From contig JAILCB010000021.1 in NCBI GenBank assembly GCA_024680595.1, positions 1 to 37,785 of the forward strand: DNA of 37,785 nucleotides. Direction: 5' to 3'. The position numbers and the translations under genes are program-made. The DNA comes from Lachnospiraceae bacterium (GTDB lineage: Bacteria; Bacillota; Clostridia; Lachnospirales; Lachnospiraceae). This document shows, piece after piece, positions 2,974 to 34,893 of this stretch (positions within the stretch are counted from its first letter, which is position 1; the number at the start of each line of letters is the position of its first letter). The notes under the pieces are model-generated. The model was not told the DNA's origin. It ran no database searches and was given only the letters and a program-made list of their open reading frames with translations.

Positions 2974-3028
2974 ATTTATCCCTCGCAGGGTCCGGGCTTT
3001 GATCCATGAATATGTTCCATATGCCGGT

Positions 3029-3238
3029 GGAGATACCCTGTCCCCCGCAGGATCCGGGATCTGCGTGATATATGCGTAAATTTGCACTTGAAAATTCACT
3101 GTCCCCCGCGGGATCCAGGATCTGCGGATACATTTCCTTTATGTGTTTACAGGGTTTTTGGAGATACCTTGTCCCCCGCGGGATCCGGGATCTGCGGATA
3201 CATTTCCTTTATGTGTTTACAGGGTTTTGGAGATACCA
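3029..3238 (+). repeat. Intergenic tandem repeat, period about 70 bp, downstream of the ABC operon
   Basis: Two near-identical units lie head to tail at 3101-3170 and 3171-3238, differing mainly by one T and one A/G. A diverged partial copy lies at about 3029-3075, and weaker similarity extends back to about 2981. Each unit starts with TGTCCCCCGCGGGATCC, which can fold as CCGC...GCGG around GAT...ATC, and continues with an AT-rich half. The units are not obvious copies of the ATPase 3' end. No reading frame of note crosses them. The region 2974-3365 otherwise holds only the terminator and the promoter listed next. Confidence 0.8.
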
Positions 3239-4624: not shown

Positions 4625-5524
4625 GTGTCTGATTATGCTATTAGCTGCTGCTCCACAGCAGATTTGAGTCATGAATGGTATGAAAAGAGAGATATTGCGG
4701 TTGTTCCCTTTCACATTATTGTAGGCAAGGATGATTTGGAGGACGATATGGGTGTGACGATCACCCAGGAGGAGCTTTTCCGCCGCATGCTGTCGGGCGA
4801 AGAGGCCCACAGCTCCCAGGTCAGTACCGATGCCTATATTAATCACTTCGAGCCCATGCTGAAGCAGGGAAAGGATATTCTCCACATTACCCTGTCCTCC
4901 GGAATCTCAGGGACCCTGAATTCCGCCATGGCGGCTAAGGCGGAGCTGCAGGAGAAGTACCCCTACCGGAAGATTATCATTGTGGATTCCCTAAACGGTT
5001 CCTCCGGCTATGGAATGGTAGTGGATTTGGCCGCTGATCTCAGAGATGAGGGAAAGACCATAGATGAGGTCCAGGACTATCTAGAGGCCCATTTGCAAGA
5101 GTTCAATACCTGGGTGCTTTCTACGGATCTCACCTTCCTAATTAAGGGAGGACGGGTGAAACCCGCTGCCGGAGCCATTGGCAAGCTTTTGAATATCTGT
5201 CCCTTTGTGACCCTGACCCAGACCGGGTCCCTGGCTGTGGTGGAAAAGATCCGCACGAAAAAGAAGGCCCTTGCCCGTTTGGTTGAGATTATGAAGGAAA
5301 GGGCCGACAAGGGTCTCTCCTATGAAGGGAAATGCTTTATCAGCCATTCAGACCCGGCCCTGGGACAGGAGCTAAAAGCCCAGGTGGAGGCCAGCTTCCC
5401 CCAGCTAAAGGGGAAGATCGCCACTTTTCTGGTGGGCGGCACCATTGGAGTCCATTTGGGACCGGGAACTGTGGTGCTCTTCTTCCGGGGTCCGGAAGGC
5501 CAGAAGAGGGACTTCACGGCCTGA
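4625..5524 (+). CDS. DegV family fatty-acid-binding protein
   Basis: A cytoplasmic DegV protein, 299 residues, close to the usual 280-295. Members bind a fatty acid, and some (FakB) present it to the kinase FakA for phosphorylation. Visible family marks are the N-terminal STADLSHEW, SSGISGTLNSA, the VDSLNGSSGYG strand, FLIKGGRVKP followed by GAIGKLLNICPF, and the C-terminal GTIGVHLGPGTVVLFF. The start is GTG at 4625 with AAGGAGG eight bases upstream, in the gap after the lipoprotein gene. No fakA (DAK2) gene is in view. Its 3' end is duplicated downstream (see the repeat at 5518-5604), and it converges on the araB-like gene. Confidence 0.92.
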   Translation: MSDYAISCCSTADLSHEWYEKRDIAVVPFHIIVGKDDLEDDMGVTITQEELFRRMLSGEEAHSSQVSTDAYINHFEPMLKQGKDILHITLSSGISGTLNSAMAAKAELQEKYPYRKIIIVDSLNGSSGYGMVVDLAADLRDEGKTIDEVQDYLEAHLQEFNTWVLSTDLTFLIKGGRVKPAAGAIGKLLNICPFVTLTQTGSLAVVEKIRTKKKALARLVEIMKERADKGLSYEGKCFISHSDPALGQELKAQVEASFPQLKGKIATFLVGGTIGVHLGPGTVVLFFRGPEGQKRDFTA

Positions 5525-5604
5525 CGGATTGCCATGGCGGGAGGCGGCTTTAGCTTCGCCCGTTTCAAAGGCCTGACGAGTTACCATGGCGAGAGGCAGC
5601 TCTG
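5518..5604 (+). repeat. Tandem duplication of the degV 3' end (period 52 bp)
   Basis: The segment around the degV stop codon (GGCCTGACG, then ATTGCCATGGCG and GGAGGC) recurs 52 bases downstream from 5570 as GGCCTGACG, AGTTACCATGGCG and AGAGGC. The first copy folds GGCG...CGCC around the core CGGCTTTAGC (5545-5554), which also occurs in the dispersed element next to it. Confidence 0.65.
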
Positions 5605-5606
5605 CG

Positions 5607-5700
5607 AATCGAGTGGGGAAGATGCAAATCGCACCCTACTCGGCCGCGAGCCGCCGGTCGGCTTTAGCCGACGAATTTCATCTCGGCGGCTCTGCGATAG
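5607..5700 (+). repeat. Dispersed hairpin element, copy 1
   Basis: About 90 bases matching, in inverted orientation, the element at 12398-12485. The core is a double palindrome: GAGCCGCC (5648-5655) pairs with GGCGGCTC (5685-5692), and inside it GTCGGCT (5657-5663) pairs with AGCCGAC (5666-5672). It starts with AATCGAG and GATGCAAATCGCACCC and ends TCTGCGATA. It abuts a terminator hairpin. Short open frames across it are by-products of the repeat and are not annotated as genes. Confidence 0.8.
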
Positions 5701-5750
5701 AAAAAACCGGGTTCAAGAGATTCTCCAATCCCTTGAACCCGGTTCTTTCT
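5701..5750 (+). terminator. Bidirectional terminator between degV and the araB-like gene
   Basis: An 11-bp perfect stem CCGGGTTCAAG (5707-5717) with CTTGAACCCGG (5732-5742), preceded by AAAAAA and followed by TTCTTTCT. It can therefore stop transcripts from both convergent genes. The remaining 5751-5889 holds only a small nested inverted repeat (ACATTC/GAATGT at 5806-5841); I see no gene there. Confidence 0.88.
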
Positions 5751-5889
5751 ATATCAGGCAATTCAGCCTTAATTAATAACTCCCCTTACTCTTCCAATAG
5801 CCCTGACATTCACAATCCCTATTCAGGGGTGCCGCGAATGTGTGAGATCTAATGGCCAGTCAAAAGGATCTGAAATCACAGTATCCCAC

Positions 5890-7563
5890 TCAGGCCTCTG
5901 TCTTATTAGCCTCGCGGATGCGGTTCAGGTGCTTCATCACATCATTTCCGCCCTTGCCGAAGTAATCATGCAGCTTCTTGTACTCCGCATAAAGCTGGTC
6001 ATAGACCGATACCTGAGACTCATTGGGAGTATAGACCTTATCCTGCAGCTTAGCCAGCTTGGCCGCGATTTCATTGGCATCCTTATAGCCCGTAACTTCA
6101 CTCGGTGCCGCGGCAATTCCCAGAATAGCGGCTCCCAGGGCACAGGCCTGGTCACTGGCGCAAACCCGGATATTCCGGTTCAGAATATCGGTATAGATCT
6201 GAACGATGAGGGGATTCTTGGAAGGAATTCCACCGCTGAGAATAATGCTGTTCACCGGCACCCCCGCTGCCTCATAGTTCTCAATAATAGCCCTGGTGCC
6301 AAAGGCAGTGGCCTCGATTAAGGCCAGATAAATGTCCTCCGGCTTGGTCTGCAGATTCATACCGATAATAAGGCCGTTCAGGTCGAAGTCCATGAGAGGG
6401 GAACGCACGCCGTTGAACCAGTCCAGAGCCACCAGGCCGCTGGCTCCCGCCTTATAGCCCTGCAGCTTCTCAGACAAATATTGATGGACGGAAATTCCCT
6501 TTTCCCTGGCCACGGAGGCATAGCTCTCCGGCACACAATTATCCACAAACCAGGCGAAGTGATCGCCTACGCAGCACTGTCCTGCCTCGATTCCGAAGTA
6601 GCCCGGCATGATACCGTCCTTGACGATACCCTGAATTCCCTCAATATGAGCTTCCTTATCCGCCAGCATCAGGTGGCAGGAAGAGGTTCCCATGATGATT
6701 TCCATTTCACCAGGCTTTCCCACACCGCCGCCCGGCACGGAGCAATGGGCATCGATGATGGGGGTGGCCACGGGAGTTCCGGCCTTCAGACCCAGAATGG
6801 ATGCCATTTCGGGACAAATTTCCCCAGCCTTGCCGCCCATGGGCAGAATAGGCATATTCATCTTGTCCTCAATGACATTGGCAAATCCGGGGTCCAGGGC
6901 TCCAAAGAATTCCTTAGAGGGGAAGCCGGTCTCATGGTGATAGAAAGCCTTGTAACCCATGGAGCAGGCAGAAGAGGTCAGAGTATCCGTCATCTTCCAG
7001 ATAATCCAGTCCATAGCCTCCATGAAGTAATCCGCCTTCTCATAGACCTTGGGGGCCTTCCGGAAAACCTCCAGCACCTTGGGCATGGTCCACTCTCCGG
7101 AAACCTTTCCGCCGTACATGGAAAGCCAGCTCTCATTTCTCTCTCTGGCAACCTTGTCAATATAGGCAGCCTCTTCCTCGGCGGCATGATGCTTCCACAG
7201 CTTGACGAAAGCGTGGGGCTCATGGGCGAATTCCTCGGTCTGGCAGAGAGGGGTCTTGTCCTTGTAGACCGGCAGAATGGTGGCAGAGGTAAAGTCTACG
7301 CCCACACCTATAATCTCTTCAGGCAGAACCTTGCCGGGTGCCAATACGCCCTTTACCACAGTAAGGAGGCCGTCATAATAATCCTGGGGATCCTGAAGGG
7401 CCCAGGCCGCAGGCAGGGCCTCTCCGGTGGGAAGGTGGGTCTCCATGACCTTGTGGGGATACTCATAGACACTCTGGGCAATCTCCTCTCCTGTGTGAAT
7501 ATCCACAAGGAGGGCCCTTACTGACAGGGTACCGAAATCCAATCCGATTGCATACTTAGCCAT
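5890..7563 (-). CDS. araB: FGGY-family carbohydrate kinase, ribulokinase (AraB) type
   Basis: Cytoplasmic ATP-dependent kinase of the AraB branch, which phosphorylates L-ribulose and, in some members, related ketopentoses or pentitols. The length of 557 residues fits AraB and is longer than xylulokinase or glycerol kinase. Motifs are the N-terminal phosphate loop GLDFGTLSVRALLVD, VGVDFTSATILP, FVKLWKHHAA, YGGKVSGEWTMPKVL, an internal MGTSSCHLML and the C-terminal ILSGGIPSKNPL. The ATG has AAGGAGAAC upstream. It is the last gene of a minus-strand set after the GpsA-like and AraM-like genes, separated from araM by 246 bases of repeats. No araA, araD or sugar transporter lies nearby, so arabinose use is not proven. 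A pentitol, tetritol or another ketose substrate is possible. Confidence 0.87.
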   Translation of the reverse strand: MAKYAIGLDFGTLSVRALLVDIHTGEEIAQSVYEYPHKVMETHLPTGEALPAAWALQDPQDYYDGLLTVVKGVLAPGKVLPEEIIGVGVDFTSATILPVYKDKTPLCQTEEFAHEPHAFVKLWKHHAAEEEAAYIDKVARERNESWLSMYGGKVSGEWTMPKVLEVFRKAPKVYEKADYFMEAMDWIIWKMTDTLTSSACSMGYKAFYHHETGFPSKEFFGALDPGFANVIEDKMNMPILPMGGKAGEICPEMASILGLKAGTPVATPIIDAHCSVPGGGVGKPGEMEIIMGTSSCHLMLADKEAHIEGIQGIVKDGIMPGYFGIEAGQCCVGDHFAWFVDNCVPESYASVAREKGISVHQYLSEKLQGYKAGASGLVALDWFNGVRSPLMDFDLNGLIIGMNLQTKPEDIYLALIEATAFGTRAIIENYEAAGVPVNSIILSGGIPSKNPLIVQIYTDILNRNIRVCASDQACALGAAILGIAAAPSEVTGYKDANEIAAKLAKLQDKVYTPNESQVSVYDQLYAEYKKLHDYFGKGGNDVMKHLNRIREANKTEA

Positions 7564-7660
7564 AATGTTCTCCTTTCTCTAGAGTGAATTTAATTGATTA
7601 TTTATATCCTTTCAGAGCAAATTTCGCTCAAAAGCATTCTCTTAAGCAGGCTATATCGCC

Positions 7661-7842
7661 CCTCACCGATTTTTCTCAATGAAGGCTACAAGGTGCAGCC
7701 CTGTAGGAACCTCACTGATTCTTCTCAATGAAGGCCGCAAGATACAGCCCTGCCGGAACCTCATTGATTCTTCTCCATGAAGGCCGCAAGACGCGGCCCT
7801 GTAGGAACCTCACTGATTCTTCTCAAAATAATCCGCAAGACG
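7661..7842 (-). repeat. Four-copy tandem repeat of the araM 3' end (period 49 bp) with conserved hairpin
   Basis: Three copies at 7661-7709, 7710-7758 and 7759-7807 lie directly downstream of araM, and the fourth (7808 to about 7842) is the last codons and stop of the gene. In mRNA sense each copy reads a G-C hairpin with a CTT-containing loop, then GAGAAGAATCA, then TGAGG. The stems are GGCCGC/GCGGCC, GGCTGU/GCGGCC and GGCUGC/GUAGCC, with a weaker one in the gene. All variants pair in the minus-strand RNA through G-U, but give A-C mismatches on the other strand. No gene lies in 7564-7809. Confidence 0.85.
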
Positions 7843-9162
7843 CAGGCTATAATCCTCGGACAGGCCCAGATCCCAGAGAATCTGCAGGAGGGTGAAACGG
7901 TCTCTGACCTCCTTTGCCAAAACCACCCCGTCCTTTACCATTTCCGTAGATACTTCAATTTGCGCGGGATTCACGGCCCCGCCCAGAAGGGATAAGAGAT
8001 CTCTCAAGGCCTCCACGGTAGGCAGATTCTCATTAATGAGCTTCTTCATCTCATCCCAATGCTCCTCATAGAAGTCAAGCCTCTTATTCCTGGCCTCTAT
8101 ATTATTCTTCTGACACTTATCCTCCAGGGCAATGATGCCGGGGGCCGCATCTACATAGCAGCGCTCCACCCGCTCTTTCCAGCCCTTGTAATCAAAGTCC
8201 TTCTGCTTTGCCGCTTTGAAGTCTATATCCTCCGCCGCCAGCATCCTATACATATAGGTGGCCGCAATAGTATTAATTCCCACCTTAGTTCCGTGCAGAA
8301 CCGGCTTCTTCCCCTCCATCTCAAACTTCATCTCCCAATAGTGGGACATATGGTGCTCACAGCCGGAGGCCGGACGGGAATTTCCGGTAAAGTACATGGC
8401 GATTCCCGTCAGAACCAGAGCCTCCATGACGGCCTTGACCGCATCCGGATTCCTGTCCTTGATCTTGGGTCCCTCTTCCGTCACAACAGCAAGGGCATCC
8501 CTGACCATCTGGGCCACCTCGTCGCAATAATACTCTCCATTAATGAGATGGGCCATCTTCCAGTCCAAAAGGCAGGTGTGCTTTCCCAGAATATCCGCCA
8601 GACCCGCTGAAATCATCTTCATAGGGGCCTGGGCCAGGATGTCCGGATCCCCAAATACCGCCACAGGACAGTGGGCGTCATAGGTGGTCTTGACATGGCT
8701 CACGATGAGGGCCGCGCCTACGGACACGAAGCCGTCCATGGAAGGGGCGCTGGCCAGTATAATATAATCCAGCTTCAATCTGGCACTGATAAATTTGCAC
8801 ATATCATTGATGGTGCCGGAGCCCACCGCCAGAATCAAATCGCAGTCGGCGGGGCAGTGAATGACCACCTCTCCTACACTCTGCTCATTGGGAATCAGGT
8901 CGGTATAGGGCAGAATATACTGGCTGAAGCTTACACCGGCCTTGTCCAGTTCCCCTGCCTCTTCCTTTCCCAGGGCCTGCCAGGTATTGGTGTCCGCTAC
9001 CAGGTAGACCTTCTTGTAACCCTTTCTCTGTATATAAGCGGGAAGACGATTCAGGGCCCCTCTATCGATATCTAGCTCATCCAGGGGAGTGGAGTGAGTC
9101 CTTCCGCACCCACATTTCATTTCCTTTCCAAGATACTGCTTTAAATCAATCTTCTTAGCCAT
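7810..9162 (-). CDS. araM: sn-glycerol-1-phosphate dehydrogenase family protein (AraM/EgsA)
   Basis: A metal-dependent NAD(P)H dehydrogenase of the iron-alcohol/G1P dehydrogenase fold. AraM of Bacillus subtilis reduces dihydroxyacetone phosphate to sn-glycerol-1-phosphate. The nucleotide-binding part shows AVGSGTINDMCKFISA and ASAPSMDGFVS, and the metal-binding signature is SRPASGCEHHMSHYWEM, with HGTKVGIN after it. The length of about 450 residues is longer than the usual 390-415. I place the start at ATG 9162, which has GAAAGGAGA upstream; an ATG at 9186 overlaps the previous stop and lacks a site. It begins 23 bases after the GpsA-like gene and is surely co-transcribed. Its 3' end is copied three times downstream. 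Whether it acts on dihydroxyacetone phosphate or on a longer sugar phosphate is not shown by sequence. Confidence 0.88.
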   Translation of the reverse strand: MAKKIDLKQYLGKEMKCGCGRTHSTPLDELDIDRGALNRLPAYIQRKGYKKVYLVADTNTWQALGKEEAGELDKAGVSFSQYILPYTDLIPNEQSVGEVVIHCPADCDLILAVGSGTINDMCKFISARLKLDYIILASAPSMDGFVSVGAALIVSHVKTTYDAHCPVAVFGDPDILAQAPMKMISAGLADILGKHTCLLDWKMAHLINGEYYCDEVAQMVRDALAVVTEEGPKIKDRNPDAVKAVMEALVLTGIAMYFTGNSRPASGCEHHMSHYWEMKFEMEGKKPVLHGTKVGINTIAATYMYRMLAAEDIDFKAAKQKDFDYKGWKERVERCYVDAAPGIIALEDKCQKNNIEARNKRLDFYEEHWDEMKKLINENLPTVEALRDLLSLLGGAVNPAQIEVSTEMVKDGVVLAKEVRDRFTLLQILWDLGLSEDYSLRLADYFEKNQ

Positions 9163-9185
9163 TTGGCGTCTCCTTTCATTAGTCA

Positions 9186-10235
9186 TTAATCATTATTGAC
9201 TGTTAATGTGAATTTCTCCCAAGGGATATCTACCTCGGCTCCCTCATTGATAATGGAATCTACATGCATGAGCAGGGGGAAGTCCTCCGGAGATACCACC
9301 CCTCTCTTTGTCAGGGCCCGAACCGCTCTGGCGGTCCTGGTGGCGATAACGATGGATTCCAGGGTTACGCCGGACAGCTCGTCCATGGCTTCCTTAAAGG
9401 TGAGACCCCGGCCCAGCAGGGTTCCAATCTTTCTGGTCCGTCCGCCGAAGACTGTCACATACAGGTCTCCTGCCCCAAAGATAATATTCTCGGCTCCCCC
9501 GTGAATCAGGGAAATGAGCTTGGTCATCTCTCTCACGCTCTGTCCGAAGAGGGCCGCCTGAGAATTATAATGAACCGCCCCTATCTTTCCATCCCGCTTT
9601 TCTGCCAGACCCACTGCCAATGTCACACCCAGGGCATAGGCATTCTTCATGGCCACCGCACACTCCACGCCCACAATATCCGTGGACAGGCTTACATGAT
9701 AGTAGCTGCAGGCAAAGGTCTTTTTCAGGAATTTCAGGGTCTCCATATTTCTGCCGCAGAAGGCTACGTGGCTGTCATCGTGGTCGGCCAGCTCATAGCT
9801 GGTACAGGGACCGCCGATAGCATTGATGTCCAGCTTCTTTCCCTCCGGCAGCCTCTGCTCCATGACATAGGGATAGGGGATTAGGTCTCCCTCCTCCGTG
9901 TCCACCATGCCCTTGGTCACAGAAATCAGGGGGGCATTCTCGGGCAGGATGGGAAGCATATTATCGCAGAACCAGTCCAGTCCGAAGCTGCTGACACCGT
10001 TCAGGACGATGTCTGTCCCTTTCAGGGCCTCTTCCACCTCTTCCACCTGATAATACTTGATTCCCTGAGGAAGAGTGCGCTTCAGGTTCAAGTGGAAATC
10101 CGTTCTCCTGAGCTCGTCAATAATCTCTCTGTCCAAGGGAGTTCCTACCAGCCTTACCTCGTGTCCATTCTCTCTGACCGGGAAGGTCAATGCGGATGCC
10201 ATCTGTCCTGCTCCAATAAAAGTTAATACGCTCAC
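9186..10235 (-). CDS. GpsA-like NAD(P)-dependent glycerol-3-phosphate dehydrogenase family protein
   Basis: A Rossmann-fold dehydrogenase of the 6-phosphogluconate/G3P dehydrogenase superfamily, about 349 residues. The N-terminal nucleotide motif is FIGAGQMASAL. The C-terminal helical domain shows GVECAVAMKNAYALGVTLAV, in which the lysine is the expected catalytic residue, and GAGDLYVTVFGGRTRKIG. True GpsA usually has TC-S--SRN at that last place, so this is a divergent member and its substrate may differ. The start is GTG 10235, five bases after AAGGAGG. An ATG at 10265 would add ten residues ahead of the Rossmann strand and has a weaker site. It is the first gene of the minus-strand operon, driven by the promoter at 10349-10377 and facing the deoR gene. 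Confidence 0.82.
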   Translation of the reverse strand: MSVLTFIGAGQMASALTFPVRENGHEVRLVGTPLDREIIDELRRTDFHLNLKRTLPQGIKYYQVEEVEEALKGTDIVLNGVSSFGLDWFCDNMLPILPENAPLISVTKGMVDTEEGDLIPYPYVMEQRLPEGKKLDINAIGGPCTSYELADHDDSHVAFCGRNMETLKFLKKTFACSYYHVSLSTDIVGVECAVAMKNAYALGVTLAVGLAEKRDGKIGAVHYNSQAALFGQSVREMTKLISLIHGGAENIIFGAGDLYVTVFGGRTRKIGTLLGRGLTFKEAMDELSGVTLESIVIATRTARAVRALTKRGVVSPEDFPLLMHVDSIINEGAEVDIPWEKFTLTVNND

Positions 10236-10240
10236 CGATT

Positions 10241-10247
10241 CCTCCTT
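10241..10247 (-). promoter_or_regulatory. Ribosome binding site fixing the GTG start of the GpsA-like gene
   Basis: AAGGAGG on the minus strand, five bases before GTG 10235. It is the best match to the anti-SD in the region and argues against the upstream ATG. Confidence 0.75.
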
Positions 10248-10348
10248 ATCCTCCATGCCTTGCATGAATCCTTGCCACCAAGCCCCATTCCCGGGTACTC
10301 TATTAATTATTCCCGGTCTTTTCCGCCCGGTTTTTCTCTGTTGAAATC

Positions 10349-10377
10349 ATTCTATAGGACTGACTGAATTAAATCAA
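10349..10377 (-). promoter_or_regulatory. Minus-strand promoter of the gpsA-like/araM/araB operon
   Basis: On the minus strand, TTGATT (10372-10377), a 17-base spacer and TAGAAT (10349-10354). It sits back to back with the deoR promoter, so one bound repressor could control both. The leader downstream holds three scattered CCGGG blocks of unknown meaning. Confidence 0.7.
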
Positions 10378-10386
10378 TACTTGGCT

Positions 10387-10402
10387 CTAATATTGAAATT
10401 AG
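10387..10402. promoter_or_regulatory. Candidate DeoR-type operator between divergent promoters
   Basis: CTAATATTGAAATTAG is an imperfect palindrome (CTAAT/ATTAG) overlapping the -35 of the plus-strand promoter and lying just upstream of the minus-strand -35. Related half-sites, TTCAGAATTAG and GACTGAATTAAATC, flank it. Assignment to the adjacent repressor is inference from position. Confidence 0.35.
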
Positions 10403-10421
10403 TTCAGAATTAGCCTATAAT
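10393..10421 (+). promoter_or_regulatory. Plus-strand promoter of deoR
   Basis: TTGAAA (10393-10398), a 17-base spacer and a perfect TATAAT (10416-10421). The predicted start is near 10428, giving a leader of about 130 bases in which I see no other structure. Confidence 0.8.
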
Positions 10422-10556
10422 TTTGATTGAAAACGCTCATAACAGGAATAGGGGAAAGCCCTGTAAACCAAAAAACTATCTGAAAATATATCTTTTCCCT
10501 ATGAAAGCTTAAATTTCTAAAGTCTAAGGCTATACCATTCTTGAAAGGAGACGGAC

Positions 10557-11315
10557 ATGTCGGAGGACAGGAAAAAGGAGATACGGGATCTACTATCCGC
10601 CAGGGGCTATATGACGGTGGAGGAGCTCTCTAAGCAGCTTTTTGTCAGTGTTCCCACTATTAGAAGGGACTTAAATGAGCTCTCCCGAAAGGGTCTGGTG
10701 AAGAGGGTCCACGGCGGCGCCTCCTATGTGGGCAAGGACTCCTTTGAATGGTCCCTGGACCTCAGAAATAGGGTCAATCTCGGGGAGAAAAAGCGTATAG
10801 GACAAAAGGCCGCCGAGCTCATTGAGGACGGCAACCATCTCTTCCTGGATGCCGGCACCACCTGCCACTTCCTGGCCAGGGCATTGAAGCCCTCTATCAA
10901 GATTTCTGTTCTCACCAACAGCATTCCTACCATGCAGAAGCTATCTGAGAACAAGAATATTATAATAGAATGCCCCTGCGGCCTCTATGTCCCCTCCCAT
11001 TTGGGTATATTCGGGGATGAGGCGGCCTCCTTCATCCAGACCCGGCATGCGGATTTCTATTTCGCCACTGCTACCGGCTTCCACGAAGAAACCGGGGTGA
11101 CTCTCCGCACCCGGCTGGAAATCTCTGTAAAGCAGGCCATGAGGAAGAATTCCGACTGCATGGTCCTGCTGCTGGATCATAGCAAAATGGGAATTAAGAA
11201 TTATTACCATACCTTTGACTTCTCCCAAATCGACATCCTCATAACAGATGCCCCCCTTTCCGCCTCTCTGGCCGAGAAGTGCGCCGACCAAGGTGTGGAT
11301 GTCATTTACGCCTAG
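10557..11315 (+). CDS. DeoR-family transcriptional repressor
   Basis: A sugar-phosphate-responsive repressor, 252 residues, the usual size. The N-terminal helix-turn-helix reads MTVEELSKQLFVSVPTIRRD, followed by LVKRVHGGAS, the family hallmark. The C-terminal DeoR sensor domain contains LDAGTTCHFLARAL, LTNSIPTMQKL, the ATGFHEETGVT segment and LLLDHSKMG. The start is ATG 10557 with AAAGGAGA. It is transcribed away from the gpsA-like/araM/araB operon, so control of that operon by a phosphorylated sugar or polyol intermediate is a sound inference. Its last 11 codons and stop are the first unit of a 61-bp tandem array. Confidence 0.92.
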   Translation: MSEDRKKEIRDLLSARGYMTVEELSKQLFVSVPTIRRDLNELSRKGLVKRVHGGASYVGKDSFEWSLDLRNRVNLGEKKRIGQKAAELIEDGNHLFLDAGTTCHFLARALKPSIKISVLTNSIPTMQKLSENKNIIIECPCGLYVPSHLGIFGDEAASFIQTRHADFYFATATGFHEETGVTLRTRLEISVKQAMRKNSDCMVLLLDHSKMGIKNYYHTFDFSQIDILITDAPLSASLAEKCADQGVDVIYA

Positions 11316-11499
11316 TGCCATTCCTCCTTCTTTTTGCAAATGCGCCGACCGGGGTGTGGATGTCATTTACGCCTAGTGCCATTCTTCCTCCTTTTTGCAA
11401 ATGCGCCGACCGGGGTGTGGATGTCATTTACGCCTAGTGCCATTCTTCCTTCTTTTTGCAAATGCGCCGACCGGGGTGTGGATGTCATTTATTGCTAGT
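11281..11499 (+). repeat. Tandem repeat of the deoR 3' end (period exactly 61 bp, 3.6 copies)
   Basis: Units begin GCGCCGACC at 11281, 11342, 11403 and 11464, the last truncated near 11499. The first unit contains the final codons and TAG of deoR, so each later unit is a copy of the gene end plus about 28 downstream bases that finish with a T-rich CTTTTTGCAAAT. Copies differ at only a few positions, so the array looks recent. A weak GGTGU/ACGCC stem is kept in the first three units. Confidence 0.92.
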
Positions 11500-11519
11500 A
11501 TGACCTTTTCTCTCTCTTG

Positions 11520-11528
11520 TGTTAGAAT
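11520..11528 (+). promoter_or_regulatory. Extended -10 promoter placing the truA-1 mRNA start at or next to its ATG
   Basis: TGTTAGAAT is an extended -10 with hexamer TAGAAT at 11523-11528. At the correct distance upstream lies ATGACC (11500-11505), a fair -35. The ATG of truA-1 is at 11535, where initiation by RNA polymerase is expected, and no Shine-Dalgarno sequence precedes it. Confidence 0.5.
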
Positions 11529-11534
11529 ACGGAT

Positions 11535-12272
11535 ATGAAAAATTATAAGTTTAATCTAAGCTATGACGGAACCCGTTATTTTGGCTGGGAGCACCAGCCC
11601 AATACCGATATGACCATTCAGGGAAAGCTGGAGCAGGTGCTTTCCCTCATGGTTGATGGCCCGGTCACGGTGATCGGGGCAGGACGGACCGACGCCGGGG
11701 TACACGCCCGGTCTATGACGGCAAATGCCCTTCTGGATACAGAAATGACCCCGGAGGAGATTCAGGCCTATATGAACCGCTATCTTCCGGAGGACATCAG
11801 CATTAATGATGTGAAGCAGGCGGCAGACCGCTTCCACAGCCGCTTTAATGCAAAGGGCAAGACCTACCGCTACACCCTTTGGTATGGAGAAGGAAAGCCG
11901 GTCTTTGACCGGAAATATACCACTGTCCTTGATAGGAAGCCCAATCTCCTTCTCATGGAGCAGGCGGCCTCACTTCTGACCGGCATGCATGACTATAGGG
12001 CTTTTTGCGGGAATTCCCGTATGAAAAAGTCCACCATAAGGGTGGTGGACACCATCCGGATAGAGAGCCAGAACCACTATATCCGTATCTATTTCCACGG
12101 AAACGGCTTCCTGCAGAATATGGTCCGTATCCTGGTGGGAACCCTACTTGCCGTATCCTATGGGGATATAGAGGTCTCAGACATTCCCGGCATTCTGGAA
12201 TCCAAAGACCGCACTAAGGCGGGTCCCACCGCCCCGCCCCAAGGACTCTGTCTCATGAAGGTGGACTACTAG
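11535..12272 (+). CDS. truA: tRNA pseudouridine synthase A, paralogue 1
   Basis: Converts uridines 38-40 in the tRNA anticodon arm to pseudouridine. At 245 residues it is the standard length. The catalytic motif is GAGRTDAGVHA with Asp53 as nucleophile. Other family marks are LSYDGTRYFGW, FHSRFNAKGKTYRY, the FHGNGFLQNMVRILVGTLL core and AGPTAPPQGLCL at the end. No ribosome binding site is visible before ATG 11535, and the nearest promoter suggests a leaderless message. A second truA lies at 33687-34829 in the usual ECF/ribosomal-protein context, so this isolated copy is the extra one. It may have a narrowed tRNA target, but the sequence cannot show that. Confidence 0.93.
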   Translation: MKNYKFNLSYDGTRYFGWEHQPNTDMTIQGKLEQVLSLMVDGPVTVIGAGRTDAGVHARSMTANALLDTEMTPEEIQAYMNRYLPEDISINDVKQAADRFHSRFNAKGKTYRYTLWYGEGKPVFDRKYTTVLDRKPNLLLMEQAASLLTGMHDYRAFCGNSRMKKSTIRVVDTIRIESQNHYIRIYFHGNGFLQNMVRILVGTLLAVSYGDIEVSDIPGILESKDRTKAGPTAPPQGLCLMKVDY

Positions 12273-12350
12273 GGCTCTGCCCTATAATGTGGATAGGGCC
12301 GCGCCTTGTGGCCCCAGCCTGAGGGACTTGGGCCATAGGCCGCGCCTCGA
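12272..12350 (+). repeat. Weak local duplications after truA-1
   Basis: From 12272 the bases GGGCTCTGCCC resemble the last codons of truA-1 (GGACTCTGTCTC at 12243) about 29 bases earlier. GGCCGCGCCT also occurs twice, about 42 bases apart (12298 and 12339). A TGGCCC/GGGCCA hairpin spans about 12309-12335. No gene is seen in 12273-12592. Confidence 0.35.
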
Positions 12351-12352
12351 CC

Positions 12353-12400
12353 AGAAAAAAATCGGATAAGGGAGACCATCTCCCCTATCCGATTCTTTAT
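12353..12400 (+). terminator. Bidirectional terminator between truA-1 and the hybrid kinase gene
   Basis: ATCGGATA (12361-12368) pairs with TATCCGAT (12386-12393), extended by GGGAGA/TCTCCC inside. AGAAAAAA precedes and TTCTTTAT follows, so it can end transcripts from both convergent genes. It directly adjoins copy 2 of the dispersed element. Confidence 0.85.
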
Positions 12401-12485
12401 CGCAGAGCCGCCGAGATGAAATTTGTCGGCTAAAGCCGACCGGCGGCTCGCGGAAAGGGTGCGATTTGCATCTTCCCTCTCGATT
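12398..12485 (-). repeat. Dispersed hairpin element, copy 2
   Basis: The minus strand reads almost the same sequence as 5607-5700, from AATCGAG through GATGCAAATCGCACCC and the nested GAGCCGCC/GTCGGCT palindromes to CTCTGCGATA. As in copy 1, the TCTGCGATA end abuts a bidirectional terminator, although the terminator stems have unrelated sequences. Confidence 0.8.
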
Positions 12486-12510
12486 GTATATATGCATTTG
12501 TCAAACAAGA

Positions 12511-12623
12511 CATTTACAATCCCTACAGGACATCCGTCAGGGTCCCATCAAACTGCTGATACCTCGATGGTAAACCTCTGAATTTGCAACCCCTACAGGA
12601 CGTCCGTCAGGGCCCCAATCAGA
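12511..12623 (-). repeat. Tandem duplication of the hybrid kinase gene 3' end (period 70 bp)
   Basis: The end of the kinase gene (plus strand ACCCCTACAGGACGTCCGTCAGGG from about 12589) recurs 70 bases further on at 12519 with CATCCGTCAGGG, and the similarity spans about 43 bases. In mRNA sense both copies can form CCCTGAC/GTAGGG across the stop codon. Confidence 0.75.
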
Positions 12624-15466
12624 CTCTCCGGCGAAATCGGCTTGCCTACGTGGCCATTCATGCCGGAGGTAATGGCATTCTTCTTGTCCTCTTCAAAGGT
12701 ATTGGCAGTCACTGCAATAATAGGAATATCCGACTTCCCGGGCTCATTCAAAAGCCTTATGGCCTCCGCGGCCTGATAACCATTCATATTAGGCATCTGG
12801 ATATCCATGAGAACCGCATCATAGTAATATGGCGGATTCTCCTTTACTTTGTTGAGGCAAATGAGTCCGTCCTCGGCCCTATCCACCCTGAAGCCAAACT
12901 CTTCCAGCATAATTATGGCAATCTCGGCATTAATATCCATATCCTCTGCTAAAAGCAGCCTCTTACCCTGAAAGCCGCTCATAGTCTCTGTCTTCTCTAA
13001 TGCCTCCTCATCCTCCTTTCGGATTCTAAAGGGTATCAGCATAGTGAAGGTGGAACCCTCTCCCTCCTTACTCTGGACCTCAATGCTGCCGTCCATGAGA
13101 TCCAAGAGCCGCTTCACCATGGGAAGTCCCAGACCCACACCCTCAATCCGATTCTTTTCAGAATTTTTCTCCCGGGCAAACAATTCAAAGACCTTGGGCA
13201 GGAATTCCTGGCTCATTCCCCGGCCCGTATCCCGGACCACAGTCTTATAGAGGCCATAGCCCTCCTTATCCGAAGGCAGCTCCTCCACGGAAACCTGGAT
13301 CTCTCCCCCGGACTCCGTATATTTCCAGGCATTGGACAGGAGATTAAAGAAAATAACCCTCACCTTTTCCGCGTCACAGTAAATATTCTCATGCTCTACC
13401 CGGACAGTCCTGGTGAATTCAATGCCCTTTCGGGTCATCTGCTCATTAAACATGGAGTAGAGGGCATCATTTAGCTGTCCCATATTATAGGGAACCTCAT
13501 CCAGGACCGCCAGGCCCTTTTCAAGCCGGGACACCTCCAGCACATTACTAAGGATGGACATCAGCAGGTCTCCGGAGCTCTTAATCTTCAGAAGATACTC
13601 CCTCACCTTCTCGGGATCTTGCCGGTTCTTATTGGCCAGATCCGCAAATCCCAGAATAGCATTCATAGGGGTCCTGATATCATGGGACATATTAAAGAGG
13701 AAGGTGGTCTTGGCCCGATTGGCACTCTCAGCCCTCTGAACCGCCTCCTGCAGCTCCTCGTGGGCCTCCTCCAGCTCATCCTTCTGTTTCTTGGTAATTT
13801 CCAGAATCTTCTGCTCTTTATCCTTTTGAATATTTGTCTTCTTTAGGGAGATAGCCAATACCACGGCCACAGCCACAATGAGACCGATAATTATCAAAAG
13901 AATCATTAAAACCAATGAAAGATTATCATGAATGAACTCCTGTAAGGAATAGGCCGAATTATGCTCCACATACTTATACATGGCATTGGTCATATAGGAC
14001 TTGTCAATAAGGGTAACCCCTCTGGCCATTAGGGAGTAAACCACATTATTCCCCTTCTTGACCCCCAGGCAGTAATTCACATTCTCACCCAAAGGCATCC
14101 GGTTTAGGACCTCATACTCCGTATCGGCCAGGTATTTCTCCGCCCGTCCCGTGTTGAAGAAGGTACAGGTGGCATCCCCCTTCTTCACCGCTTCTAAGCA
14201 TTCCTCTCCGGAATGTACCATATGGATCTGACTATTGGGATAATGCAGTATGGCATAGCTTCTTTGAAAAGGGCTGTGATCCGAGAGAGCAATGACATCT
14301 GTGGTATGGCCATTATAATCACCCCTATATATCAAATAAACAGAGGATTCCACCAAATTGGAGGTCTGAACGATCTTTTTCTGCTCCGATACCCATATAT
14401 TATCGTTAATGGGAAAGGCTACATCTATCTCTTCTTTTCCAAGGGCGGTCACCATATCAGTATAATATTCGTAGCCCACATATTCTATTGGGAGAATGTA
14501 TTGGAGGCCCAGCTCCATTTCCCACCTCTCCATGATGTCCCGGATGACGCCAACCGTTTCTCCCTTTTCATTTGTCCCGCAGAAAGGCAAATAATTCTCC
14601 ACATACCCCACTCTGATCTTGTCGTGATCCTTGACCCATCGACTCTCCTCCGAGGAGAGGGCGGCATTGACGGCCGTATTCTTGAAATACTTGACCTGAA
14701 GACTGGAAATGAAGTTGGGATTACTCTCATTCAGGGATGAAAGGGCCCGGTTTAACTCTCCCAGCAAATCCTCCCTGCCTTTGGCCACGCCCAGATAATA
14801 GGAGGATTTACCCACCATAGTCACGGGGCTTACGCCGGAATTGGAGGGCACATTATTATTGACAGCGATGAAGGCATCAATTTCTCCCTTTTTGAAGGCC
14901 TCATCCCTTACGTCAAAGTCATTGTACATGACCATTTCACAATGAATGCCGGTATCCTTCATCCATTCCTCAAAGAAATCGGTCATGAGATTATTCTCCA
15001 GGGAGCCCACCCTCTTTCCCTCCAGGCTAGTGGGATCGCTCCCCGTGATCTTTTCATCCCCGGCTTTTTTGTAGATATAATAGGATTCATAACCCATTTC
15101 CACACTGGGATAATTAATGAGGGGCGCCCTCTCCTCCGTATAGGAAAGACCGGCCAGCAGATCAATGTCCCCTTTCAAGAGGGCGTCATATAGGTCAGAC
15201 CAGCCCCCGTGCACATATTCATAATCCCATCCGGTATAATTGGCCACACTCTGCAGATATTCATAGGAATAGCCATTCTTTATCTCATCATTACTAGAGC
15301 CCTCCTGAAAATGGTCAGAGTTATACCAGCCAACCCTGACCTTTTGGGCCTGGTTTTTCTCACCTGCAAATACATTAGGAGAAAGAATCAGGGCAAAAAT
15401 GAAAAATAAAACAAGAACTGACGCGAGAATTGATTTTTTCTGAGAACAAATGGCTTTTGTAATCAT
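12593..15466 (-). CDS. BvgS-like hybrid sensor histidine kinase with two periplasmic-binding domains
   Basis: A 957-residue membrane sensor. The N-terminal signal/anchor (about 12-34) is followed by two extracellular family 3 solute-binding domains (about 41-265 and 282-500), which likely bind amino acids or related small ligands. One membrane span (about 517-541) and a coiled-coil linker (about 545-585) lead to HisKA with His595 in FNMSHDIRTP. HATPase follows, with NLLSNAWKYT, RDTGRGM and GVGLGLPMV. The C-terminal receiver domain has EDMDIN, phospho-acceptor Asp888 in LMDIQMPNMNGY and Lys942. There is no PAS domain and no C-terminal HPt domain, unlike classic BvgS, so an HPt protein elsewhere is needed if a phosphorelay operates. 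The start has AAAGGAGA and a consensus promoter upstream. No response regulator gene is adjacent. Confidence 0.94.
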   Translation of the reverse strand: MITKAICSQKKSILASVLVLFFIFALILSPNVFAGEKNQAQKVRVGWYNSDHFQEGSSNDEIKNGYSYEYLQSVANYTGWDYEYVHGGWSDLYDALLKGDIDLLAGLSYTEERAPLINYPSVEMGYESYYIYKKAGDEKITGSDPTSLEGKRVGSLENNLMTDFFEEWMKDTGIHCEMVMYNDFDVRDEAFKKGEIDAFIAVNNNVPSNSGVSPVTMVGKSSYYLGVAKGREDLLGELNRALSSLNESNPNFISSLQVKYFKNTAVNAALSSEESRWVKDHDKIRVGYVENYLPFCGTNEKGETVGVIRDIMERWEMELGLQYILPIEYVGYEYYTDMVTALGKEEIDVAFPINDNIWVSEQKKIVQTSNLVESSVYLIYRGDYNGHTTDVIALSDHSPFQRSYAILHYPNSQIHMVHSGEECLEAVKKGDATCTFFNTGRAEKYLADTEYEVLNRMPLGENVNYCLGVKKGNNVVYSLMARGVTLIDKSYMTNAMYKYVEHNSAYSLQEFIHDNLSLVLMILLIIIGLIVAVAVVLAISLKKTNIQKDKEQKILEITKKQKDELEEAHEELQEAVQRAESANRAKTTFLFNMSHDIRTPMNAILGFADLANKNRQDPEKVREYLLKIKSSGDLLMSILSNVLEVSRLEKGLAVLDEVPYNMGQLNDALYSMFNEQMTRKGIEFTRTVRVEHENIYCDAEKVRVIFFNLLSNAWKYTESGGEIQVSVEELPSDKEGYGLYKTVVRDTGRGMSQEFLPKVFELFAREKNSEKNRIEGVGLGLPMVKRLLDLMDGSIEVQSKEGEGSTFTMLIPFRIRKEDEEALEKTETMSGFQGKRLLLAEDMDINAEIAIIMLEEFGFRVDRAEDGLICLNKVKENPPYYYDAVLMDIQMPNMNGYQAAEAIRLLNEPGKSDIPIIAVTANTFEEDKKNAITSGMNGHVGKPISPESLIGALTDVL

Positions 15467-15534
15467 AATATCTCCTTTAAGCTAAGCAGCCTTTTCAGGT
15501 ACAAGGCTTTTTGAAGACCCTATTTAAGAAATTA

Positions 15535-15563
15535 ATTATAGAATATTCCGATTTAAATATCAA
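15535..15563 (-). promoter_or_regulatory. Consensus promoter of the hybrid kinase gene
   Basis: On the minus strand, TTGATA (15558-15563), a 17-base spacer and TATAAT (15535-15540), in a strongly AT-rich stretch. The leader is about 60 bases long and ends with the ribosome site AAAGGAGA. Confidence 0.85.
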
Positions 15564-15699
15564 TGAAACTAGCTAATTTATGTTAAATTTTCACAAATAT
15601 TACAGAAAAAATTACTTCTTCCATTAAAAGCCCGGATCCGTACTTCCCGCCCTTCTTCCTATGGATTCCTGTCCCTGCCTCCTACAGAATGCAGGCGGA

Positions 15700-15945
15700 T
15701 CCGGCATGCTTATTAGGATGGGACAGTAGAAGAACCCATGCCCTATGAGTAGGGGCAAAGGGTCTGCGAAACCTTTTGCTGCGACCACTCAGACGCTCAT
15801 GCCCTATGAGTAGGGGCAAAAGTTCTCCTTGGATGCCTTCCGTATCGTGACGGTCTACGCATACCCTATGGAGCAGGGGCAAAAGGGAAGACGGGCATTG
15901 CGGCCTGCATACCTCTGCTCATGCCCCATATATTAGGGACAAAAC
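15700..15945 (-). repeat. Tandem repeat of the DUF1624 gene 3' end (period 58-62 bp, four clear copies and one faint)
   Basis: On the plus strand the CATGCCCTA...AGGGGCAAAAG block occurs at about 15736-15760, 15795-15822, 15858-15885 and, as the gene's own last codons and stop, 15916-15945. A fainter copy lies at 15700-15726. In mRNA sense the hairpins are CCCTA/TAGGG (two copies), CCCTG/TAGGG and CCCTA/TGGGG. The variants are G-U pairs in the sense RNA but A-C mismatches on the other strand. No gene is seen in 15564-15918. Confidence 0.82.
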
Positions 15946-16758
15946 CCCATAGAGAATGGGCTGATGGACCATATAGAGGATGAGGGAATGCCGGCCCAGA
16001 AATTCCAGGGGCGCAAGCCATCCTTTCACAAAGATCCCCAGCCATTCCCTGCTTTTGAAAAGTCTATATAGAAAGGAGCCGGTTAGGAAGAGGAAGAACC
16101 AGGGCAACAGCGAAAAATAGTCTGTGGAAAAAAAAGACTCCGGCGGGAAGCCCAAAAAGGCCGTGAAATAATTCTGATAGAAATAGGCCGGCAGGGCTAT
16201 GGTGAAAATTCCCTTCCATCCAATATAGCCCATATTTACAGGGCGAAGGAAGAGAAAGAGCAGAAAACTGCCCATTAGACCAATTACAGGAGGGATTCTA
16301 TTAATGAGGCCCTCTAAGGGTATGGTTAAAAGCATGCAGGAGCCTAGGAGGGTGAGTACCCCGAAATGTACCACGGCTGTTGGCATGAAAAGAGCGGTAA
16401 CTAAGGTGATAAGGGCCCCGGATGCGAAAACGGTGAGCCCCCTTTTGAAATGGCGCCGGCCCAGCTGCCTGCAGAAACCGGATAACAGAATGAAGGTCCA
16501 GCATATGGTCTGCTGCCATATAAAGCCTGGCTTTTCCCCATACCAGGAGGCCCGGACTCCGAATAGATATACCAGATCCCACATACCATGGTAGAGAATC
16601 ATGCTAATAAGGGTCAGTCCCCTTATTCCGTCCAGCTTTTGATAGCGGGCATGGGGGGAAGAACTGTATATATCCTCCAAGATACTCTCCTCCTTCCCGC
16701 CTACTTCTGACAGGGCGGGATTGGTCCCTGCTTTGGCGATCTCTAATATTGCCGCCAT
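15919..16758 (-). CDS. DUF1624/heparan-alpha-glucosaminide N-acetyltransferase-like membrane protein
   Basis: A polytopic membrane protein with about seven hydrophobic spans. The hallmark RYQKLDGIRGLTLISMILYH followed by WDLVYLFG places it in the HGSNAT_cat/DUF1624 group, related to acyltransferase-3 proteins, which may transfer acetyl groups to sugars across the membrane. The C-terminal FLGRHSLILYMVHQPIL is also typical. Substrate is unknown. The start is uncertain. ATG 16758 is the longest frame (279 residues) but has no ribosome site. TTG 16680 has AAGGAGG eight bases upstream and begins 17 residues before the conserved RYQKLDG (253 residues). I give the outer limit. The gene stands alone, transcribed away from the acyltransferase at 17139, and its 3' end is tandemly repeated downstream. 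Confidence 0.85.
   Translation of the reverse strand: MAAILEIAKAGTNPALSEVGGKEESILEDIYSSSPHARYQKLDGIRGLTLISMILYHGMWDLVYLFGVRASWYGEKPGFIWQQTICWTFILLSGFCRQLGRRHFKRGLTVFASGALITLVTALFMPTAVVHFGVLTLLGSCMLLTIPLEGLINRIPPVIGLMGSFLLFLFLRPVNMGYIGWKGIFTIALPAYFYQNYFTAFLGFPPESFFSTDYFSLLPWFFLFLTGSFLYRLFKSREWLGIFVKGWLAPLEFLGRHSLILYMVHQPILYGVLSLIYGA
16689..16695 (-). promoter_or_regulatory. Strong internal ribosome binding site supporting TTG 16680 in the DUF1624 gene
   Basis: AAGGAGG on the minus strand, with an eight-base spacer to TTG at 16678-16680. The alternative ATG at 16758 lacks any such motif. Confidence 0.5.
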
Positions 16759-16890: not shown

Positions 16891-17025
16891 TCTCGTTCCC
16901 GTGACCCGGTGCGGGATTCAGATACATCAGGCAGCGGCTGCTCTCCGTCTTGAAGGTCCTATATATTCTCGCCCCCGTGACCCGGCGCGGGATTCAGAAG
17001 GGCGACAGCTGACATCTTTCTATAC
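16891..17025 (+). repeat. Intergenic direct repeat (period 76 bp), GC-rich
   Basis: TCTCGTTCCCGTGACCCGG (16891) recurs as TCTCGCCCCCGTGACCCGG (16967). Both are followed by a GCGGGATTCAGA block and then diverge. The unit resembles the GC-rich half of the repeat at 3101-3238. It lies between divergent genes. The stretch 16759-17138 holds only this and the two promoters. Confidence 0.6.
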
Positions 17026-33686: not shown

Positions 33687-34829
33687 CTATTCCCGGCCTA
33701 ATATTTGGATTTGCTCCAGGGTTAGACCCCTGGCGGGTGCTGTGGGGCCTGCCGCCCTCCGATCCCTGGCTTCAAGTATTTCCTTTATCCGGTCCGGCGG
33801 GATTCTGCCCCTGCCCACCTCTATTAGGGTGCCCGCAATGATTCGGACCATATTATAGAGAAAACCGTAGCCCTTTACGGTAATTATGACATCCATAGCC
33901 TGCCTGCCATGGAACATTTCATCTGACCCTAAGGTCTCTGCTCTCGTTTCGCCTTCTGCCGTCATTTGGCTTTCTGCCGTCATTTGGCTTCCTGCCGTCA
34001 TTTGGCTTTCTGCCGTCATTTGGCTTTCTGCCGTCATTTGGCCTTCTGCCGTCGTTTGCCTTCCTGCCGTCGTTTGGCTTCCTGCCGTCGTTTGGCTTCC
34101 CGCCGTCATTTGGCTTCCTGCCGTCATTTGGCCTTCTGCCGTCATTTGGCTTTCTGCCGTCATTTGCCTTCCTGCCGTCATTTGGCTTCCTGCCGTCGTT
34201 TGCCTTCCTGCCGTCATTTCGCCTTCTGCCGTCGTTTCGCCTTCTGCCGTCGTTTGCCTTCCTGACGTCGTTTGGCTTTCCGGCACAATTATGGGTTCAG
34301 CCTCCACCCTTGCCTCTGTTATCTCCCGGACGCTGGTCTTTGCCTGGGTATAGATAGAGCAGAAGCTCTTGAAATCATGCCGGCCCACCAGAAAGGCCGC
34401 AGCCTGATTCATTTTTTCAATATCTAATGGATAATAGGTGAAATGAGAATAGAGCCTCTTCAAGGGATCCGGAAAGGGCGCCCTATAGATTCGATATTTA
34501 TATGTTTTCTCAGTAGGCACATTCCTGGGATGAAAATCCGGCTCCACCTGGATAGAAGCGCGGACGCATATATCCTCAGGCAGACGGCTATTAAGGGCAT
34601 AGGCAAATTTATCCGCCTCCATTCTGGCCTCCGTATCAAATATAGCCAGATTTCCCTTTGCATGTACCCCCGCATCCGTGCGGCTGGCCCCTTCCACGCA
34701 TACCTCTTCCCCTGTGATGGACAGAATAGCCTTATTGAGCTCCCCCTCCACGGTGGGCTGTCCTTCCTGGAACTGCCAGCCGTGATAATTTGTACCGTCA
34801 TAGGCAACCGTTAAAAGGATTCTACGCAT
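33687..34829 (-). CDS. truA: tRNA pseudouridine synthase A, paralogue 2, with an 18-copy hexapeptide insertion
   Basis: Modifies tRNA positions 38-40. The catalytic motif is GASRTDAGVHA with Asp52. Flanking marks are VAYDGTNYHGW, FHPRNVPTEKTYKYRIY, GRHDFKSFCS, VKGYGFLYNMVRIIAGTL and AAGPTAPARGLTL, so both halves of the fold are complete. Between the strand ending ARVEAEPIIV and the strand starting AMDVIITVKGYG, where other TruA proteins have a short loop, residues 187-294 are 18 exact-length hexapeptides of form [M/T]-T-A-[E/G]-[G/S/R]-[Q/E]. The total is 380 residues against about 250. The start is ATG 34829 with GGAGG five bases upstream; an ATG at 34889 lacks a site. It follows ecfT, the conserved Firmicutes order, so this is the ancestral copy. 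Confidence 0.92.
   Translation of the reverse strand: MRRILLTVAYDGTNYHGWQFQEGQPTVEGELNKAILSITGEEVCVEGASRTDAGVHAKGNLAIFDTEARMEADKFAYALNSRLPEDICVRASIQVEPDFHPRNVPTEKTYKYRIYRAPFPDPLKRLYSHFTYYPLDIEKMNQAAAFLVGRHDFKSFCSIYTQAKTSVREITEARVEAEPIIVPESQTTSGRQTTAEGETTAEGEMTAGRQTTAGSQMTAGRQMTAESQMTAEGQMTAGSQMTAGSQTTAGSQTTAGRQTTAEGQMTAESQMTAESQMTAGSQMTAESQMTAEGETRAETLGSDEMFHGRQAMDVIITVKGYGFLYNMVRIIAGTLIEVGRGRIPPDRIKEILEARDRRAAGPTAPARGLTLEQIQILGRE
33948..34271 (-). repeat. In-frame minisatellite in truA-2: 18 tandem units of 18 bp
   Basis: Exactly 324 bases. Units read GCCGTC[A/G]TTTGGCTT[T/C]CT-like on the plus strand. Variation is confined to a few positions and mixes three or four unit types in no order. 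The period is a multiple of three, so copy changes keep frame. Open frames on the plus strand here are a by-product of the period. Confidence 0.95.
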
Positions 34830-34893
34830 AGCCGCCTCCATCCCCAACCCGGATTCCATTCCTCTCTGCCTTAGAATACAAGCCCCCATATCT

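Follow-up and report, generated by a model that had tools for sequence, protein, structure and literature searches.

Does this locus hold a process by which the 3' ends of genes are copied into the intergenic DNA behind them? The window, that is, the whole stretch of 37,785 nucleotides analysed here, was described in an earlier note as carrying five genes (degV, araM, deoR, a hybrid kinase gene and a DUF1624 gene), and perhaps a sixth (truA-1), whose last codons and stop are repeated downstream in direct orientation, each array using its own gene's sequence and usually spanning a small hairpin. A process acting at transcript ends, or slippage at the hairpins, was suggested as the origin. The question was approached by repeat scans of the window, of the genome from which it comes and of related genomes.

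Sampling and array detection

The source draft genome (G000) comprises 3,216,399 bases in 318 contigs and is 85% complete, and the window is its contig C63. The sample taken from it consisted of the window and 60 further stretches (565,438 bases, 546 kb of them unmasked), with a G+C content of 42-52% across the unmasked sampled contigs. Masking was complete in eight sampled contigs (19,256 bases), which were left out of the later scans; the earlier density scans took them as non-coding, so that the G000 densities per non-coding kb are too low there. About 30 short G000 loci retrieved with the REP-like element described below were left out of the counts. G000 and its relatives were sampled as contigs chosen by number or as a single long contig, with 69-136 kb per relative, and the E. 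coli sample was 50 kb. No second genome of the same species was found in the genome searches made.

Genes were called by a purpose-written script with a hexamer model instead of a published program, which gave 418 genes in the G000 sample. Thresholds varied by scan: a score of at least 20 was used for the first census and the kinship set, a score of at least 18 for the census of 104 arrays and for the spacer, lag and outer-stop counts, and gapped self-BLAST for the between-genome comparison of gaps, the counts of spanned gene ends and the scan of reach into genes.

Repeats of the window

The names araM and deoR were taken from the earlier note, and Pfam confirmed DegV, the hybrid kinase domains, HGSNAT_cat (PF07786) and an FGGY kinase at 5890-7563. 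An Rfam search of the window returned no family at its gathering score. As a control for each case, its 360-bp gene-end region was shuffled 200 times by a Markov model. The repeats, with the truA-1 region, were as follows:

3019..3237, no strand: intergenic array with spacings of 61 and 70, touching no gene end (TRF)
5518-5549 and 5570-5601, + strand: copy pair at the degV 3' end, 32-nt copy, lag 52
7661..7845, - strand: array at the 3' end of the araM-family gene, period 49, gene copy and three outer copies (TRF and HSP scans)
11280..11491, + strand: array at the 3' end of the deoR-family gene, period 61, about 3.5 copies (TRF and HSP scans)
12273..12372, + strand: region downstream of truA-1
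12512..12617, - strand: pair at the 3' end of the hybrid kinase gene, 36 nt, 89% identity, lag 70, start at -25
15737..15947, - strand: repeats of the HGSNAT_cat/DUF1624 gene, four spaced short copies with spacings of 61, about 62 and about 60
16891..16998, no strand: direct repeat in a divergent intergenic region, 32 nt, lag 76, touching no gene end

Copying of the gene end was borne out for degV, araM, deoR and the hybrid kinase gene, each of which was matched by 0/200 shuffles. The suggestion that truA-1 is perhaps copied was not upheld, its best score of 10 being matched by 42/200 and 8/200 shuffles. At the DUF1624 gene the strong pair (lag 61) begins 92-98 nt beyond the stop, and the copy over the gene end itself, the last of the four, is weak (17/28 positions, matched by 0/2000 base shuffles). 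The array at 3019-3237 is a counter-example to a gene-end rule inside the window itself; neither it nor the repeat at 16891-16998 had been counted in the earlier note. The repeats at 15737-15947 have a dyad of the CCCTA...TAGGG type and unrelated spacers of near-constant length, and look CRISPR-like to the eye from the repeats alone; two of the four are degenerate, unlike the near-identical repeats of CRISPR.

The degV copies are alike at 26/32 positions, and the copy takes in no more of the gene than its final 4 coding bases and the stop codon (start 7 nt before the stop-codon end); with a score of 17 the pair lies below the genome-wide cut-offs of 18 or 20 and is therefore absent from the genome-wide counts. 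The spacer of the hybrid kinase pair is unrelated (29% identity). The araM array (lag 49, start at -34) lies between the co-directional genes 7810-9162 and 5890-7563. Two Lachnospiraceae genomes (L062 and L063) have proteins that share 75-76% identity with the araM-family protein, and the relatives L062-L064 align to the last residue of the latter and then continue for 2, 2 and 14 residues, respectively, which indicates that the gene end is old, the copies are new and copying went outward. The outer copies of the deoR array (lag 61, start at -36) agree with one another, against the gene copy, at two bases; at both deoR and araM, changes common to the outer copies are absent from the gene copy, as if one outer copy had been made first and multiplied later.

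Number of arrays

With a score of at least 18, 104 non-coding direct-repeat arrays were found in about 103 kb of non-coding DNA of G000. Of these, 79 lay wholly between genes, 21 spanned a stop codon, 2 a start codon and 2 both, and the median period was about 65 bp. At a score of at least 20 and lags of 15-200, the respective numbers were 74, 19, 1 and 1, together with 45 arrays inside genes. The 282 intergenic segments held 77 arrays at lags of at least 25, and none was obtained in five Markov shuffles; a score cut-off of 14 gave 104 arrays against 0 in one shuffle. Direct copies are thus far above chance and the arrays are real. By extrapolation, the whole genome would hold several hundred of them.

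Placement relative to gene starts and stops

The observed footprints were placed randomly 300 times at any position leaving genes intact. By this null, 17.5±3.5 stop-spanning arrays were expected and 21 seen, 18.0±3.8 start-spanning arrays were expected and 2 seen, 4.5±2.0 arrays over both start and stop were expected and 2 seen, and 64±4.7 purely intergenic arrays were expected and 79 seen. The stop share among stop-spanning and intergenic arrays (21/100) was as expected (P=1.0), and the start share among start-spanning and intergenic arrays (2/81) was far below expectation (P=1e-6). Only 2 of 85 classed arrays lay in divergent regions against 12.9 expected by length (P=1e-4), and convergent regions were not enriched (4 seen against 6.7 expected, P=0.42).

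Since stop overlap equals that of random placement, gene 3' ends do not appear to be a target, contrary to what the earlier note had suggested. In the gapped self-comparison, 3' ends were spanned more often than 5' ends (23/273 versus 6/291, P=0.0009); among non-coding positions, 3' ends are nevertheless duplicated no more often than chance gives, the outcome that the earlier note had named as counting against its reading. The 3' excess arises because arrays are missing at starts, and selection can explain that lack. A duplication that covers a stop does not alter the gene, whereas by covering a start it places a further ribosome site and start ahead of the gene; selection presumably removes duplications of the latter kind.

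Of 20 gene-end arrays, 19 begin 4-45 nt before the stop-codon end, and that of L028, at a contig edge, begins 58 nt before it. When 300 nt of coding sequence were included in the scan (324 flanks, 23 of them with pairs), one of the stop-spanning copies, at L008, was seen to reach 79 nt. A depth limit for copies in genes (chance 0.008 of there being no copy beyond 47 nt) was considered and dropped, since L028 and L008 make its premise false.

Direction, frame and spacers

Of the local pairs in the gaps of G000, 141 were direct and 46 inverted, and none of the 46 in the sampled gaps had arms at least 15 nt apart; such pairs do occur in two congeners (2 in G013 and 5 in G012). The inverted pairs of the G000 gaps are hairpins only. 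Because the local copies are direct, slippage or unequal exchange fits better than transposition. Periods of arrays inside genes were multiples of three in 33/34, and intergenic lags left remainders of 1, 0 and 2 in 36, 32 and 26 cases, respectively. No helical phasing was seen across all array periods (nR2 1.9 at 10.5 bp).

The 104 arrays were divided into 51 contiguous ones (core at least 0.9 of the lag) and 53 spaced ones (core below 0.9), the spacers of the latter matching at 0-54% in register and a few at up to 83% if shifted. At least three core copies were present in 12 of the 53 spaced arrays, with spacing constant within 2 nt in five, and at some loci, among them L014, L034 and L036, the gap is taken up by degenerate copies lying in between. 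The constant spacing and the intermediate copies make it likely that many spaced arrays began long ago as tandem copies and have since diverged unevenly; a copied piece may also have been inserted in some. Simple duplication with even decay does not predict that half of the arrays keep only a core beside a poor spacer. Clean two-copy arrays, of which 12 were listed, were too few for a verdict on border microhomology.

Distribution among genomes

Genomes were compared by the intergenic segments of at least 40 bp that contain a local direct duplication. These were 72/282 in G000; 8/37, 3/18, 3/39, 2/45 and 0/55 in the congeners G006, G012, G004, G014 and G013, respectively; 2/49 in G041 (Lachnospiraceae bacterium UBA7026, the genome of L062); 3/183 in four genomes of other families of the order together (0/59, 1/52, 1/42 and 1/30); and 0/21 in E. 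coli K-12. Significance tests took in G013, G014, G004, G006 and the order set, from which G000 differed with P=9e-7, P=9e-4, P=0.014, P=0.69 (no difference) and P=3e-14, respectively. Array abundance is lineage-specific. No array was present at five araM-family loci of other genomes (36-76% identity), and nothing turned up when E. coli genomes were searched for the araM gap.

Inside genes, G000 held 34 arrays in 565 kb, G006 and G004 held 7 and 8 per 100 kb, G037 4 per 100 kb, G014 2 in 136 kb, G013 and G012 0, and G025, G031 and G027 1, 0 and 1, respectively; G000 thus lay above the remaining genomes except G037, G006 and G004. Since arrays inside its genes are no denser than in G006 and G004, a genome-wide rise in duplication rate is unsupported. 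Two readings fit: a duplication rate that is higher outside genes only, or a count inside genes that is blurred by selection and by repeat proteins. Loss of mismatch repair was rejected as a cause, three MutS-type ATPases being present in G000, as in most of 30 relatives searched.

Other repeats

A palindrome, TGCCTAAAT-15/16 nt-ATTTAGGCA (33-34 bp), occurs in G000 in arrays of 2-6 and is absent from the window. In G000, the pattern TGCCTAAAT-N8..24-TTAGGCA was matched 57 times forward and 49 times in reverse, with many sites counted on both strands, and the reversed-pattern control gave 0; among 47 congeners it was met only in G008 (1 forward, 3 reverse). Contigs of G000 with the palindrome include C7, C15, C18, C52, C53, C101, C119, C137, C149, C205, C210, C270 and C302, and all copies in the sample (16/16) lie outside called genes. 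Loci with palindrome arrays were:

L008, 12829-12957
L016, 4918-5140
L019, 824-972
L042, 15552-15777
L060, 1076-1468

The centre spacings of the palindrome cluster at 74, 84-85, 94-96, 105-106 and 116 bp (about 7-11 turns of 10.5 bp), with 47, 81, 92.5, 145, 146 and 149 outside the clusters. With one value per class and locus, from 18 G000 loci and one G008 locus among the matches listed and with one pair 253 bp apart left out, phasing was strong (n=26, R=0.75, Rayleigh P about 5e-7, best period 10.45 bp, matched by 0/5000 uniform sets), though the loci may be related by descent. Judged by this spacing, the arrays look like phased sites for a DNA-binding protein, and the palindrome family is a stronger oddity than the gene-end arrays.

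A dispersed REP-like element of about 100 nt lies in the window at 5607-5710 (+) behind degV and, inverted, at 12398-12485 behind truA-1. In G000, where 40 of 93 candidates were scored, it matches at least 50 places, with tandem copies at some of them, and it was found in 8/48 genomes of the genus including G000 (18 places in G014, 7 in G065, 7 in G049 and 1-2 in four others). At 33937-34280, an 18-bp tandem repeat of about 18 copies lies inside the - strand gene 33687-34841 (PseudoU_synth_1 match) and encodes a six-residue repeat in a TruA-like protein (tRNA pseudouridine synthase match).

Proposed origin of the arrays

Taken together, the arrays are probably the outcome of short tandem duplications that are frequent in this lineage's non-coding DNA, made by slippage or unequal exchange and filtered by purifying selection. 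Duplications with a median period of about 65 bp would arise often in non-coding DNA by replication slippage or unequal exchange, and would then expand and decay. The survivors would lie in intergenic DNA and across gene ends, at which the copy next to the gene leaves the protein whole; few would lie over start codons or in divergent regions, and those inside genes would be almost all in frame. The copying of 3' ends would be the subset of arrays that chance to straddle a stop codon. Several results sit less well with this reading: the poorly matching spacers of about half of the arrays, an in-gene density no higher than in G006 and G004, the retention of outer stop codons, the lack of enrichment in convergent regions and the spaced inverted pairs of two congeners. 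Slippage, one of the origins proposed earlier, was judged the likeliest molecular step from the direct orientation of the copies, and the in-frame periods inside genes and the scarcity of arrays over starts point to selection as the filter. A striking local pattern such as copied gene ends can follow from duplication and selection alone, the stop overlap being predicted by a simple null, and the contrast between a lineage with arrays in a quarter of its sampled gaps and sampled genomes of other families of the order with almost none is a natural comparison for the rate of small tandem duplications.

Alternative explanations

It is unlikely that the arrays are kept for an RNA function, i.e. message stability, termination or a spare stop. 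The outer stop codons were all kept in 18/19 arrays against 14.3 expected from random trinucleotides of the same units (P=0.03), which agrees with the idea of a spare stop and is weak evidence as one of many tests; position matches in the stop-spanning arrays were 77/78 at the stop, 722/825 in coding and 729/782 in downstream sequence. The short core that about half of the arrays keep beside a poorly matching spacer would likewise fit a function. Against it, lags of stop-spanning arrays were divisible by 3 in 4/20, and stop-codon backup, one of the earlier suggestions, is doubtful because most are not. Intergenic units were no more structured than other intergenic DNA (median fold z -0.26, n=79, versus -0.17, n=150, P=0.88; stop-spanning units were outside the set). 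Single arrays do contain hairpins, and the hairpin noted earlier as usual in the copies was thus not an enriched feature; hairpin-driven slippage was rejected on the same result. Terminator-like sites, by a crude finder, were found in 7/70 co-directional gaps with an array and 18/156 without, with the site overlapping the array in four of the seven, so that the proposed link to transcript ending gained no support. The five araM-family loci of other genomes, all of them free of arrays, also speak against a kept function. The intergenic array units were richer in G+C than other intergenic DNA (51.6% versus 41.3%), which may, at a guess, come from avoiding promoter regions rich in A+T.

A process targeting gene or transcript 3' ends, e.g. 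through R-loops where the ribosome has left the message, could make the duplications, and the higher coverage of 3' than of 5' ends and the avoidance of divergent regions would follow from it. We regard it as quite improbable, since stop overlap is no higher than by random placement, 79/104 arrays touch no gene end, and convergent regions, which have two 3' ends, show no enrichment. There is also a slim chance that, in this lineage, the DNA that follows genes and is not translated mutates unusually often, an exposed transcript or the replication fork prompting short direct copies of nearby sequence after the ribosome has left. Copies would then be contiguous or carry a new spacer, intergenic regions would grow by self-copying and the copied stops would be weakly kept.

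Dispersed mobile repeats that chance to adjoin genes are largely refuted for the arrays tested, and we give this explanation very little credence. The REP-like element and the palindrome family are present in G000 and some arrays contain them. Only 14/94 sampled arrays resembled another by BLAST, however, with a largest group of 6 and with half of the groups made up of adjacent arrays of a single locus, and another four (L016, L019, L042 and L060), unlinked by BLAST, had only the short palindrome in common; the deoR array matched one place only in the whole genome, its own, and spaced-arm inverted copies within the same gap were lacking. The earlier view that this is not one mobile repeat was therefore confirmed, and most arrays do, as was stated there of each, carry a sequence of their own, the exceptions being those just named.

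An artefact of assembly might be feared in a fragmented draft of this completeness; it is most improbable, because the copies have diverged (median identity 92%, with full copies at 95% or above in 9/104) and the non-coding arrays are present on 34/53 unmasked sampled contigs, including 21/22 of those of at least 10 kb. Reverse transcription of message ends can be practically dismissed, nothing but the location of some copies speaking for it and no RVT_1 match being present in G000 (85% complete) or in the array-rich G006.

Comparison with known systems

The arrays are close to several known kinds of repeat, and no description of the same pattern was found among the papers listed by the literature search. 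Intrinsic terminators differ from the arrays, with which a G+C hairpin followed by a T run had no association. REP/BIME elements are palindromic and dispersed; they lie in co-directional or convergent gaps and avoid divergent gaps. The G000 arrays likewise avoid divergent regions; unlike REP/BIME, they are not enriched in structure (79 units versus 150 controls) and are mostly not dispersed.

The MIRUs of mycobacteria (PMC3635867) are tandem units of 50-100 bp in the gaps between genes. They are one related family, and some of their units overlap gene ends or stop codons. The G000 arrays are similar in having tandem units in intergenic gaps, some of them over gene ends, and differ in that their units are mostly unrelated between loci (14/94 alike, largest group 6). 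For lake bacterioplankton, passages of a further report (PMC9426551) describe intergenic tandem repeats whose gains and losses were ascribed to slippage, with deletions within populations; as far as those passages go, the likeness lies in intergenic tandem repeats with slippage, G000 being one draft genome and not a set of populations.

The arrays also resemble the intergenic VNTRs or minisatellites of bacteria, with which they share head-to-tail copies of tens of bases, sequence that is mostly the locus's own, a non-coding position and slippage as the likely explanation. Copies beyond chance were found here in 5/6 window cases and in the 77 arrays of the 282 segments, where shuffles gave 0. 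The arrays of G000 may differ from them in their high density (104 in about 103 kb of non-coding DNA, in one draft genome), and are best read as an abundant case of intergenic tandem repeats and not as a new system.
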